This document shows positions 21,379-64,000 of a DNA stretch of 64,000 nt, piece by piece. Source of the DNA: Physcia stellaris (taxonomy: Eukaryota; Ascomycota; Lecanoromycetes; Caliciales; Physciaceae); assembly GCA_018902385.1 (NCBI GenBank), contig JABSSW010000001.1, positions 1,612,001 to 1,676,000 of the forward strand. The letters run 5' to 3'. The notes under the pieces are model-generated. The model saw only the letters and a program-made list of their open reading frames with translations, was not told the origin of the DNA and ran no database searches. The position numbers and the translations under genes were made by a program. Within the stretch, counting starts at the first letter, position 1. Every line of letters starts with the position of its first letter.

Positions 21379-22047
21379 TCATTGGCGGTCAGTAACGTTG
21401 ACCAAGGATTGCGAGTCTTTGATCATGATGCCCCAAGGACCGTAGTCTAGATACCCATCGTGTACGCTGATGAACATCTCTTTCGCCCCGTAGCGTCCAA
21501 CGAGAGACTTGAAAGAAGCCGATGCACTGAGTGCTAGCTTCGTGCTTAGTGATGGAAATCCCGGCGCTGTCGGAATCACCAGGTCAGCATTGCTGGTCAT
21601 GTCCAAGGTCTGAGTTGTACAAGATATCCCATACGTAGAGTGCTTCGACCAAAAACCCTTTGATGACAGGGTAGAGCGGAAGAAGAGCAGCAATGTGTAT
21701 TGAAAGGACCTACCCGCAGTACCCCTGATTCTGAGGAAAACACCCGTATCTGGAAAGTTGAGGTCGACGTTGGGACAAGGGTAGCCAGGTGGGGCGATAC
21801 TATTGGCACGGGTGACCATCTCCAGCAGCGTTAGTAAGGTTGTACGGTCTTTGACCGAGCCAGAGGGACCGTAGTGATGGAGTACGAGATAGCCATCTGT
21901 GTAATCGGGCAGAGGTAGTCGAAACGGTTCCGGCGGCCAGATGTTGACAGTGCTATTGAAGGGAGCGCGGTGAATGGATGCTACAGATTCGCTTGCAGCT
22001 CCGAAAAGGATCAGCAGCAACAAAGCAAGGGGTTTTGAGAGAGACAT
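21379..22047 (-). CDS. Predicted secreted protein, unknown family
   Basis: A 222-residue frame starts with a signal peptide (MSLSKPLALLLLILFGAASE). The mature part contains DYTDGYLVLHHYGPSG and a C-terminal block GAKEMFISVHDGYLDYGPWG. The middle segment (QYTLLLFFRSTLSS) is out of character with the rest. A 105-base GTAGGT..CTCAG segment there could be a frame-neutral intron, which would shorten the protein by 35 residues. I do not recognise the family. The gene is convergent with the isomerase gene, with only about 50 bases between the stops. Confidence 0.55.
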   Translation of the reverse strand: MSLSKPLALLLLILFGAASESVASIHRAPFNSTVNIWPPEPFRLPLPDYTDGYLVLHHYGPSGSVKDRTTLLTLLEMVTRANSIAPPGYPCPNVDLNFPDTGVFLRIRGTAGRSFQYTLLLFFRSTLSSKGFWSKHSTYGISCTTQTLDMTSNADLVIPTAPGFPSLSTKLALSASASFKSLVGRYGAKEMFISVHDGYLDYGPWGIMIKDSQSLVNVTDRQ

Positions 22048-22766
22048 GTCAAGGCACTTCGACTACCTCGCAAAGCATGACTCTCGATGTCCAAGATGAC
22101 CAAGTTTGAAGAAAGATGTCTCGTCCCAACATCCGCGACTCGCACGATAGACCGCTGGGGTTTGTCTTGCGCCTGAAAAGGCCTGCAAAAGCGTACCCTT
22201 GGCAAGGTAAAGCGGCCAGAGGGGTGGCTCTCTCAACGGTGAACGAACGGATCGGATAAGAGTGCGAATCCGTTTTGATCCGCCGGTACTCGCTCCAGAC
22301 TGAGCGCGTACACCGACGACACTATCCAGGCCACAGCGGATCCAACATCAGAGGATTCTGGATGGCATCGCGCAAGCACGGGAAATCATGCTGCGAGCTC
22401 TGCGCCTGTCCCAGTCACAGTATATTTGTTACCCTTCTGGGCAGCCTCGAAGATTGTCAAATTGAGGGATCTCTAGAAGCTGCGCATGCCATGTGGTACA
22501 GGAATTATGGAAAGAATGAGACTATTATATATGAGAGCAGCTGACAAGGATCGAATGCATGATTCCACGGCAGCGGTCGTTTGGATGCTGGCTACAGACA
22601 TTCGGGATCTAGGTAGTCGGAGGACACCCGTTGAAGTGAAACTGGACAGTAGGTATGTCAGACAATAATCCAATAGCAATATATGCTCAATTGGTTGAAT
22701 GTATAGAGCCGCCGTCGTCGACATGACGTATTCACTTTCACCTTCTACCTTAATCTCCTAACAGTA
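22048..22766. other. Intergenic left of the inverted-repeat element
   Basis: Short frames only. The part next to 22047 must carry the promoter of the secreted-protein gene. The right end supplies the TA flank of the inverted-repeat element. Confidence 0.45.
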
Positions 22767-23060
22767 GGGGCGGTCAGATCAGAGTGTATCGAGCCGATAC
22801 GCTCCTCGATACACCACTCGATACACTGCTCGATACGCTCGATTTGCTCGATACAGATGTGACCGCTCTTTTGTGTTGAACGATACGTATCGTGGTGATA
22901 TATAGGGTTGACGAGATCGCGAGTGTATAACCCTAAAGTCGATACGTATCGAGGCGATACAGGTGGGTGTCCCTCCTCTTCAGACGATATGTCAGAACGT
23001 ATCGACCTCGATACGTATCGAGGAACGTATCGACTCGTTACGCTCTGATCTGACCGCCCC
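22767..23060. mobile_element. MITE-like element with TIRs and CGATACGTATCG palindromes
   Basis: The ends are perfect inverted copies for 18 bases: GGGGCGGTCAGATCAGAG at the left and its complement at the right. A TA dinucleotide lies at each flank (22765-22766, 23061-23062), fitting a TA target duplication as made by Tc1/mariner transposases. The 294-base body has no reading frame. It is filled with at least 15 copies of CGATAC/GTATCG, three of them fused into the palindrome CGATACGTATCG. The centre carries a further inverted pair, TAGGGTT and AACCCTA. The shape is that of a non-autonomous DNA transposon (MITE); the superfamily is inferred from the TA flanks only. No transposase is in the window. 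Confidence 0.78.
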
Positions 23061-23627
23061 TAGTAGTAATCGGACAACCATAGAGTTAGCTCCAATCGAT
23101 TTTCGATTTGTTTTCCCAGTTTTTTTCGATGGCCCGAACCCTATGCTTTGTAGTCCGGTTACCCGGGTTGTCTGAGGTAAGGATTTACTCCTACTAAATT
23201 ACGACGTACATACAGTACTCTGCGCAAATAATCTAAGACGAGATCTCCGTAACAATAATATGGAGATTGAAACCCCAAATGGTGAAATACGCCTCTCTAA
23301 CAAGCCGAAGCGCTTACGAAGGAGTAAACGCTAGCCATGCGAGGCATGGCTGCTTGGATGCTCTAGGCCGGGTTAGAGTACGGGAAGGCGTTCGCTCGAG
23401 ACCAATCAGATTTACGTGCTTGGATGTTTCGCTGCAAAACCCCGCGAATTTCCCCTCGATCCGGCTCCCTTAGTCAGGGGTAAATCTACGGGTAACTTCT
23501 CAATGGGCCCCCTGTGCCACAATCCTCCATCTCGCTCAATATCAACATCAATCCAACTCTCCAACGTCCCGCAAACATCTCGCCACTCGCACTTTCATTT
23601 TCATTGACCGCCTCTATCAAGAAGTGT

Positions 23628-24029: not shown

Positions 24030-24557
24030 CAAGTGTTGACCGAGACCGTGGAGCCGAGAAACAATCACCCGTGAATTCGGTTTCATTATTGAGTCTCGAG
24101 CCTGCAATTTGGACCTGTCACCACGCTAAGCAGCTAGCCCCGCCTGCTCCTTTTTTATCTCTTCAGGTTTCTTTGAACTTCCTCGCTTCGACTCTCTTTC
24201 TTCCACCACACCCTTACCAGATCACTCCACCCGATCGCCCACATTCGTTTCTCCGGACATATTTTGTTCTCCATTTACAGCTGCACGTACCTCTCATTCT
24301 TTTACAGGTAGCTATCCACTCCTTCGTCAATTCGTCATTCGTTTCGCCAGTCGAACCGCCCATTCTACCCTATCTGTTTCAAAGTCAAAAGACTTGCTCC
24401 CACCAGACTTCGACTCAAGCCCATCTTTGAAACTCAAGAAAGATATACCTTCTTCGAGGTCATCAACACTTCCGCACGTCAAGACTTCGGAGATCTGTGA
24501 TCCCCATTGGAACTTCATCAGCAAATTATCCCATTTCTCGAGTCAAGAGGTACCAAG

Positions 24558-25709
24558 ATGCGTTCATCAGGTATCGTCTCGGTGCTGTTCGCCGCTGGCG
24601 TGCTCGCAACCCCCGTTCTTGACCGCCGCGTCCTCGTGACGAACGAAGTCATTGTCACTGTGACTGACTATGTCACCATCGGTGGAGACGCGCCGACTTC
24701 CATCGCGTCAACCTCCACGACTTCCGTCCAGGCCGCACAGGCTTCTCCCAAAGCCAATGTTGCTGGTTACAAGCCCCATAGCCACAACCATCATCATTAT
24801 TCTCCCGCTCCCAAGGCCGTGGCCCCACTTCCAGAGTCAGTAAGCTCTAGCTCCAAGGCTGTGGTACCCACATCGACTTCGACTACCGTACAGGCCTATA
24901 TTCCACCGTCAACTTCTACTTCGTCCCAGGTCGCTCCCGCTACAACCGCTGCACCCCAGGCATCCGCGCCTGCAGCTAGCAACAACGACTTGCCCAAGAC
25001 AGTCGTCGCTGGCCTGACTTCCGAGGATGAAATTTACAAAGGTCTCACGCTCCAGCACCACAATGTCCATCGTACCAATCACTCGGCTGCAGCTCTTGAA
25101 TGGAATCAGACTTTGGCAGACTTTGCCAAGACCACTGCTCAGACCTGCATCTGGGGACACAGCTTGTAAGCTTGATCGATTCATGTGACTGAGGTTTGCT
25201 AACATTTACCAGGGCACCGGGTGGAGGAGGCTACGGGCAAAACATTGCTGCCGGTACCCAGGCTGGTGCCATTGCGTCTATCCTATCCAATGGCTTTTAC
25301 AACGGCGAGGAGCCTCACTATCCATCCGACTATGGCAATAATAACCCAGATATGAGCCATTTCGAAGTATGGGGTCACTTCTCACAGATGGTCTGGGCCA
25401 AAACCGAGTCTGTTGGTTGCTATACCTATACCTGTTCTCCTCCGGGTGCCGACCCATTGGACTGCAAGCCAGATGGCACTCCATACCTCGCCGGCACGAC
25501 GTGCAAAAAGCCTGGGGTGATTCCCGAGGCCGCCATTTTCACCGTCTGCAATTATTACCCTCCAGGTAGGCCCCTAAATATACCATCGGGATAGAAATCG
25601 GAATGCTAATACTTAGCTAGGTAACTACGCAGGACAATACAGCAATGTCAAGGCACCAAAAGGCGCACCCAGCGTAGCTGTGATTGATGACAAAGTTGTC
25701 GGCCTCTAG
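24558..25709 (+). CDS. CAP/SCP (Pry-type) secreted protein
   Basis: CAP-domain proteins of the yeast Pry type bind sterols and fatty acids outside the cell. Three exons (24558-25165, 25213-25565, 25621-25709) give 349 residues. A signal peptide (MRSSGIVSVLFAAGVLATP) precedes about 130 residues of Ser/Thr/Pro/Ala-rich linker with a His run (HSHNHHHY), probably O-glycosylated. The CAP domain shows LQHHNVHRTNHSA, LEWNQTLADFAKTTAQTC, YGQNIAAGT, HFSQMVWAKTESVGC and TVCNYYPPGNYAGQY, the standard four signatures including the HFSQMVW helix. The introns are 47 and 55 bases. A long pyrimidine-rich leader (about 24100-24550) precedes the start, typical of strongly expressed fungal genes. Confidence 0.93.
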
Positions 25710-62542: not shown

Positions 62543-64000
62543 GATAAACTTTTAATTATCAACAACTTTTCGTGACAAAAACACATCAAACAAATAAAAA
62601 AAAATTGTTGAAACGTATTCGAGTAATAAAATTGCTGTATTAATACGATACAAAAATTATTTTTTAACGTAAAAAATATATTTTTCGAATCAAAATTTAT
62701 TTAATTACGATTTGATTTGTTATATTTTAACGCGTCAAACGTGCAAAAAATAAAAAAACATAAATCAAAAACGAAAATTCATAAAACAATTTTAATTTAA
62801 TTGTTTAATTATAATATAAATTATTATGCAAATAAATTTATTCGTAATTTTTTTTAAAAAAATTTGTATAACTTTAAATTTTAACAAAACTAGAAAATTT
62901 TCACGAAAACAATTTTGTAAAAAATGAAAATTCAAATTTTTCGAAAATAAAATTGACATTTCGTTAAACAATTCGATGATCGAAATTCGAATAATTTCGA
63001 AAAAAATCAATTTTAATTATTTTACAATTCGATTAACGTTAAATTCAACAAATTAACATTTTCAATCGAAATTTATCGAATTTGTACGATTGAATAAACA
63101 AAATATAAATAAAAAACAATTACAAAACGTATTTTATTTTGTAACGATTAATAAATCAATATATTACATTTTAAATTACATATTTTTAATGTCAATAATT
63201 CATTAAATTATATTGTTTTTAAAACAAATTTTATATTTTAATCGTTTTTGAATTTCAAAATAATGTTATTCGTGTATATTTAACAAAATATAATTTTGTT
63301 GTTTCGTATATATTATATCGAATTTTAATAATAATTTGTTTTTAAATTTGTCGAAAATATTGACGTAATTTTTTAATTAATTTATTACAAACAACAAATC
63401 GAAAAAATTATAAAAAAATTTAAATTTAAATTCGAAATGTCGAACGTTCGAAATTTGCAATTTTTATTTTATTTGTTTTCGTTTTCGTTTTTAATTTTAT
63501 TTGAAAAATTTTCGTTATAAAAATTACGTCGAGAAAATATTTTATTGTTTATCGATTCGAAATCGAATCAATTTTGATCAAAACGTTTGAAACGTGAAAA
63601 ATTAAATTTTAATTTTTTTAATTTTTTACATAATATTCAAATCAATTTCGAATTTATAAAACATAACATCAACGAATTATAATCGATTTCAAAAACTCGA
63701 TATTTTAACAAAATTTTGTTCAATCGAAAAACAATTGTTATTACGACGTTATAATTTCATATCAAAACGTTTGTAAACGTAATTTATTTATTTTCGTTTT
63801 TTGAATTGATAATTAATTTTGATTATTGTATCGATTATCGTTTATATTTATTCGTTTTCATGTTGTTTTTAAAAATATATATTTAATTTAATTGATATCG
63901 ATAATAAAAAAAAAATTAATGTTTGATTATGTAAACAAATTTTTAAATGTTAAATAATTCATGTTATATAAATAACATTTTTGATAAAAATAAATCAACA
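62543..64000. repeat. Extremely AT-rich block with CpG-biased cytosines
   Basis: From about 62543 to the window edge the sequence is almost only A and T, with no coding frame. In a sample of 180 bases (63421-63600) I count 17 C on this strand: 14 are followed by G and 3 by A, none by C or T. The same pattern holds by eye throughout, with GG, CC, AG and CT almost missing while TTCGAA, AACGTT and ATCGAT recur. It looks like a heavily mutated former repeat or heterochromatic isochore. The original sequence cannot be recognised. Confidence 0.8.

Follow-up and report, generated by a model that had tools for sequence, protein, structure and literature searches.

The window, that is, the whole stretch of 64,000 bp analysed here (bases 1612001-1676000 of contig C1, within a genome of 44.0 Mb and 147 contigs), harbours at 22767-23060 a complete MITE of 294 bp with perfect 18-bp inverted ends. 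The left terminal inverted repeat (TIR; 22767-22784, plus strand) begins GGGGCGGTCAGATCAGAG and the right one (23043-23060, minus strand) is its exact reverse complement; when 20 bases are compared, 19 of them are identical between both ends. The element is flanked by TA on the left (22765-22766), a putative target-site duplication, and by TA on the right (23061-23062). It lies 720 bp upstream of a minus-strand reading frame of 222 amino acids (21379-22047) that gave no Pfam match, and reading frames with a CAP domain (24507-25594) begin about 1.4 kb beyond it.

The body of the element is packed with CGATAC/GTATCG units. Fifteen of them are present, compared with a mean of 0.92 and a maximum of 5 in 2000 dinucleotide-preserving shuffles, and the fused palindrome CGATACGTATCG occurs three times (22881-22892, 22940-22951, and 23009-23020; mean of 0.0015 in the same shuffles). 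The left subterminal array (22786-22854) contains six units with a period of about 12 bp and has relatives at the left ends of the long elements on C2, C5, and C13 described below. At its inner edge there is a copy of the TIR core, TGACCGC (22860-22866), which is exact in 6 of 11 MITE copies, so that the left arm, taken by itself, has inverted cores at both of its ends. The right subterminal array (22940-23032) is homologous to CGAAACGTTTCG arrays elsewhere in the family, namely in the MITEs on C39 and C70 and in the long elements on C49 and C70. Between the arms, TAGGGTT (22903-22909) and AACCCTA (22929-22935) form a central inverted pair (22903-22935); no such pair was seen in the five long copies read, from which little can be concluded, as their decayed DNA is nearly devoid of GG and CC. 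The anatomy given by the sequence-only reading (element length, inverted ends, TA flanks, hexamer units, fused palindromes, and central pair) was therefore confirmed in the window sequence.

We have found that the element belongs to a dispersed family. DNA searches of the genome using the window copy, the C70 copy, and the C6 copy as queries, which yield counts to be taken as at least the number given, allowed us to extract 11 two-ended MITE copies of 242-320 bp on 10 contigs (C1, C42, C19, C11, C27, C6 with two copies, C29, C34, C70, and C39), sharing 63-97% identity. Degraded or partial copies are also present on C31, C98, C20, and C41, together with one at C1:686284 that was judged by eye. 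A single-copy oddity, or ends that are not conserved, would have spoken against a mobile element; both were ruled out by these further copies with related ends. The family is short, non-coding, and dispersed in several copies with inverted ends, as MITEs are in general, and the MITE identity proposed from the window sequence is also borne out by mostly TA flanks and by larger coding relatives with the same ends.

Exact CGATACGTATCG occurs at 29 sites genome-wide (none for the reversed control), 26 of which are inside family copies or fragments, one of these (C1:686284) by eye only, and three outside. As a second family marker CGAAACGTTTCG proved poor on its own, with 88 sites genome-wide and 10 in the family; among 10 places read outside the family, eight lie in one AT-rich retrotransposon-like repeat, as judged by eye. 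Exact TAGGNGCGGTCA ends were found 21 times and are closely paired only in the MITEs. The loci C98:16538 and C20:596419 are near-identical, with a common MITE fragment and common flanks, which suggests a segmental duplication that included the fragment.

The ends of the family are related but not uniform. Left and right ends match at 14-20 of 20 bases in 10 of the 11 MITE copies, and the C39 copy matches at only 5 of 20 because one of its ends is shifted by a base. Three end subtypes can be distinguished (GGGGCGGTCAGATCAGAG, GGTGCGGTCACACCTCTC, and GGGSCGGTCACAGCGTG), the left and right ends of a copy being of one subtype where they are preserved; the ends of C29 and C34 are intermediate and more degraded. 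TA is found on 18 of the 22 MITE flanks, on both sides in seven copies and on one side in the other four, and at all five ends of long copies. A 3-bp direct repeat is present in none of the 11 copies, including the seven with TA on both sides, so these copies do not show the TWA duplication of PIF/Harbinger sensu stricto. As no empty insertion site was found for the eight of 11 copies searched, the TA could belong to the ends of the element rather than to a duplication, as in a Spy-like case.

Single ends that run into AT-rich DNA without a MITE body revealed longer relatives, three at left ends (C2:1135527, C5:703769, and C13:594073) and two at right ends (C49:175959 and C70:66346). C2, C5, and C13 share one sequence inward of their left ends (78-95% identity); inward of the right ends, C49 and C70 are 92% identical, and part of C13 matches at 89%. 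The MITE and the transposase-carrying long elements share their terminal inverted repeats: the left end of C13 is of the window's TIR subtype (16 of 18 bases), and the right end of C49 is 94% identical to the C70 MITE over 121 bp. A genome search with the DDE_Tnp_4 domain (PF13359) gave 15 matches, 11 of them above the cut-off (24.8 bits), and these include C13 (596883-597281, 45.6 bits), C49 (174643-175077, 52.6 bits, 0.9 kb from the right end that bears the array), and C70 (57765-57971). In C13 the window-subtype TIR is followed by a second gene, ORF1 (594388-595668), and then by DDE_Tnp_4; pieces of ORF1 are also found in C2 and C5. In C70, some 7 kb of inserted DNA, with a direct repeat of about 254 bp at either end, interrupts the transposase gene. 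This insertion is one of a set: the repeat, roughly 250 bp long, is found in pairs spaced 6.6-7.1 kb apart on nine contigs (C21, C84, C22, C44, C47, C19, C45, C16, and C70) and 17 kb apart on C93, resembling retrotransposon LTRs.

Pieced together from several copies, the order would be left end, ORF1 (plus strand), transposase (minus strand), and right end, with an estimated length of about 3.7 kb. Both ends were not recovered in one long copy among those read: there is no TIR core within one mismatch in the 861 bp beyond the C13 transposase, in 401 bp of C2, or in 451 bp of C5, and the 501 bp read on the left side of C49 contain one one-mismatch core without an array. The search for an autonomous element with the same ends thus yielded decayed long relatives that carry these ends, a transposase, and ORF1, but no two-ended long copy.

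The C49 transposase stretch is open except for TGA codons. Its read-through protein is recognized as DDE_Tnp_4 (58.2 bits) with the catalytic spacing D-51-D-63-E kept, and it is 64% identical to an uninterrupted relative, P0001; all nine TGA codons fall at tryptophans of P0001. TGA stops are present in all 15 DDE_Tnp_4 matches of the genome. At least 34 relatives of P0001 were found at E ≤ 1e-20, the named ones being basidiomycete proteins (37-45% identity) and one Puccinia protein (P0033, 29%); this fungal company, along with the size of the genome, points to a fungal host. ORF1 has 10 relatives in ENA records, including the uninterrupted P0040, and the uninterrupted P0001 and P0040 indicate that less decayed copies exist elsewhere. 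A Myb/SANT (MADF) identity of the ORF1 product was sought and was not obtained: ORF1 and P0040 gave no Pfam match over the cut-off and no detected Myb/SANT domain, the comparison of P0040 with PDB sequences gave no credible relative (four weak matches, the best at E 0.14), and the structure model of P0040 (pLDDT 40) is too poor to judge by.

Because the coding relatives with the same ends carry DDE_Tnp_4, the partner of the MITE is a PIF/Harbinger-like transposon. The PHIS superfamily (PIF/Harbinger, ISL2EU, Spy, and kin) is indicated by this domain in C49, C13, and C70 and by the D-D-E triad kept in C49, the ends and the gene being assembled across copies. Canonical PIF/Harbinger elements have a 3-bp TWA duplication (PMC4482050), from which the seven TA-flanked copies differ. 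The TA flanks fit PHISTA, that is, PHIS transposons with TA target-site duplications described from Pucciniales in December 2025 (PMC12730594), and do not fit the TWA of Harbinger, AT of ISL2EU, AAATTT of Spy, ANT of Pangu, or CWG/CTNAG of Nuwa (PMC4482050). Like PHISTA, the present family is fungal and has a DDE transposase of the PHIS group, TA flanks, and an accompanying protein without detected Myb/SANT; it differs in that PHISTA was described from rusts with many TET-bearing families, and palindromic arrays are without mention in the accessible part of that description (PMC12730594). The Puccinia relative P0033 is only 29% identical to P0001 and is not known to belong to PHISTA. In PIF/Harbinger elements and Tourist-like MITEs such as mPing/Ping/Pong, an autonomous element with two genes (DDE transposase and ORF1) is likewise accompanied by short derivatives that have the same ends but do not code for protein, and these ends start with G as they do here (PMC2836001).

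The claim that no described family has such a body has to be divided: we found no description of the motif array in the open-access literature (subscription journals and Repbase being outside this scope) and the papers matched in a string search, all apparently unrelated, did not contain CGATACGTATCG, but the partner superfamily is well known and its TA-flanked branch has been published (PMC12730594).

The arrays are also a property of the coding elements. On 10 segments of the five long copies, the combined density of CGATAC, CGCTAC, and CGAAAC is 4.0-6.9 per 100 bp within the outermost 125-150 bp and 0.10-0.46 inside, a contrast that is partly compositional as the interiors are AT-rich and decayed. 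When only CGATAC and CGCTAC are counted, the interior count is zero in four of the five long copies and 4 in C49, and the C70 right end is likewise without them, all its units being CGAAAC. The left 150 bp of C13, of the window's end subtype, contain five CGATAC and one CGCTAC, and those of C2 and C5, of another end subtype, contain each two CGATAC, three CGCTAC, and one CGAAAC. The right arms are more divergent, with CGATAC in the window type and CGAAAC in C49, C70, and C39. Among CGAWACGTWTCG palindromes in 13 elements or ends, 22 are of the T type, 10 of the A type, and none is T/A-mixed, these sites being related by descent. We had considered this symmetry as proof of dimer sites, but it is weakened by seven further palindromes in the 11 MITEs that have one change and are asymmetric (none T/A-mixed) and by the kinship of all sites; the T/A switch may have happened once in an ancestor and then have been passed on by descent or homogenisation.

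The conservation of the hexamers at first sight speaks for selection. With the C1 copy as reference, hexamer positions are conserved at 97-99% and other positions at 70-88% in five of the ten other copies, and the respective percentages are 100/96 in C42, 89/75 in C29, 88/79 in C34, 84/67 in C70, and 78/65 in C39. Between C1 and C6b, 13 of 15 units are intact, versus 7 of 111 other windows. However, C-to-T or G-to-A transitions at CpC or CpT (CpY) account for 46 of 73 changes outside the hexamers in four disjoint pairs and for 65 of 129 in cross-subtype pairs, and the hexamers offer few such sites (12 of 390 hexamer columns versus 139 of 523 elsewhere, in the first sequence of each pair). When CpY transitions were excluded, changes affected 29 of 390 hexamer positions and 27 of 523 elsewhere in the disjoint pairs (P=0.94), and 47 of 440 versus 64 of 506 in four cross-subtype pairs (P=0.20). 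A stricter site choice (unit intact in either sequence), which is biased towards a deficit, gave 27 of 335 versus 84 of 611 non-CpY changes (P=0.005). When transversions alone are counted, some of nine pairs show a lower number in the hexamers and others do not, only C1-C27 falling below 0.05 (P=0.011). As the excess is gone in the main control, hexamer conservation was set aside as proof of selection and is not used here as evidence of binding.

The mutation bias has a wider footprint. Decayed repeats, including the interiors of the long elements, one of the places read outside the family, and bases 63001-64000 of the window, have odds of 0.00-0.04 for CpC/GpG and 0.00-0.33 for CpT/ApG, with CpA and CpG kept and TpA low, and C/T differences among copies are mostly before T and next before A. 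Canonical RIP is directed to CpA, and CpT-leading signatures have been reported in Magnaporthe and Botrytis (PMC4352252). A RIP-like process has decayed the long copies that were read, so that the family can probably no longer move in the present genome.

Taking these data together, we favour, with a probability of about 0.7, a non-autonomous MITE of a TA-flanked PHIS-type (PIF/Harbinger-like) family that was moved by the DDE_Tnp_4 transposase of its relatives, its arrays being candidate docking sites. The MITE would have been cut and pasted by the enzyme of the longer same-ended elements; the shared ends and the gene are observed, and the role of the enzyme is what we infer from them. Because they are located in the outer 125-150 bp of the long elements, the arrays are most likely putative subterminal protein-binding sites. 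The CGATAC/CGAAAC arrays would then act as end-proximal, dyad-symmetric docking sites for a DNA-binding protein encoded by the element. That protein would most likely be the product of ORF1, recruiting the transposase to the ends in the manner of the Myb-like protein of Harbinger3_DR. This role is suggested by the position of the arrays, the two symmetric palindrome types, and the zebrafish analogy, in which the Harbinger3_DR ORF1 protein binds a 9-bp subterminal motif and interacts with the transposase (PMC9710019); the likeness is in the subterminal motif, present here as many palindromic copies that are putative sites, with an ORF1 that is not recognisably Myb. The arrays are thereby a plausible binding-site cluster, as the sequence-only reading had proposed, on account of their location near the ends and of the two symmetric types without mixed ones, but the extra conservation of the units is largely host mutation bias. 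Ac/Ds and En/Spm likewise have short motifs densely placed near their ends, to which proteins of the element bind; those elements differ from the present family in belonging to other superfamilies and in their 8-bp or 3-bp duplications.

The arrays might instead be by-products, generated by slippage of a tandem of the 12-bp CTCGATAC type and apparently conserved through the C-to-T bias, with no role in binding. We regard this as unlikely. The left array is indeed a tandem of roughly 12 bp, the hexamers are poor in CpY, and no significant conservation excess is left in two of the three site or pair choices when CpY transitions are removed; however, slippage alone explains neither the existence of two symmetric palindrome types without mixed ones (0 of 32, the 32 being related by descent) nor why the coding elements carry the arrays near their termini and hardly any units inside, and a deficit of non-CpY changes persists under the stricter, biased choice.

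The proposal that the element is structure-forming DNA, with a cruciform or foldback as the functional state instead of a protein-bound duplex, seems to us quite improbable. The single strand of the window element folds at -78.7 kcal/mol (z -9.4), none of 200 shuffles being equally stable, and paired changes in the palindromes would preserve a hairpin and a dimer site alike. Nevertheless, such folding is expected of any element built of inverted repeats, an inverted-end MITE probably folding well whatever its function, and 12 bp should not be enough for a single palindrome to form a stable hairpin. TA duplication is a hallmark of Stowaway-type elements of the Tc1/mariner group, and the TA flanks would agree with a Stowaway-like MITE; this origin is disfavoured and highly improbable, as the same-ended coding relatives carry a DDE_Tnp_4 whose homologues are of the PHIS type.

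Within the docking-site reading, a more speculative idea, which we consider doubtful, is that the palindromes are a subfamily address code in which CGATACGTATCG and CGAAACGTTTCG would be alternative dimer sites, both halves changing together as the binding protein diverges. With their few CpC and CpT, such sites would outlast the RIP-like defence that destroys the coding copies, and the MITEs would stay readable after their enzymes die.

This family offers an example of motif conservation among transposon copies that is largely produced by a mutation bias resembling genome defence. It also provides a concrete and testable case of a two-protein Harbinger-type system that possibly finds its ends by means of dense dyad-symmetric sites, with two site types, in a TA-flanked branch for which rusts are the only named source that we found. 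Should the sites prove to be bound, the T-type and A-type palindromes and their respective ORF1 proteins would show how recognition changes in natural pairs.
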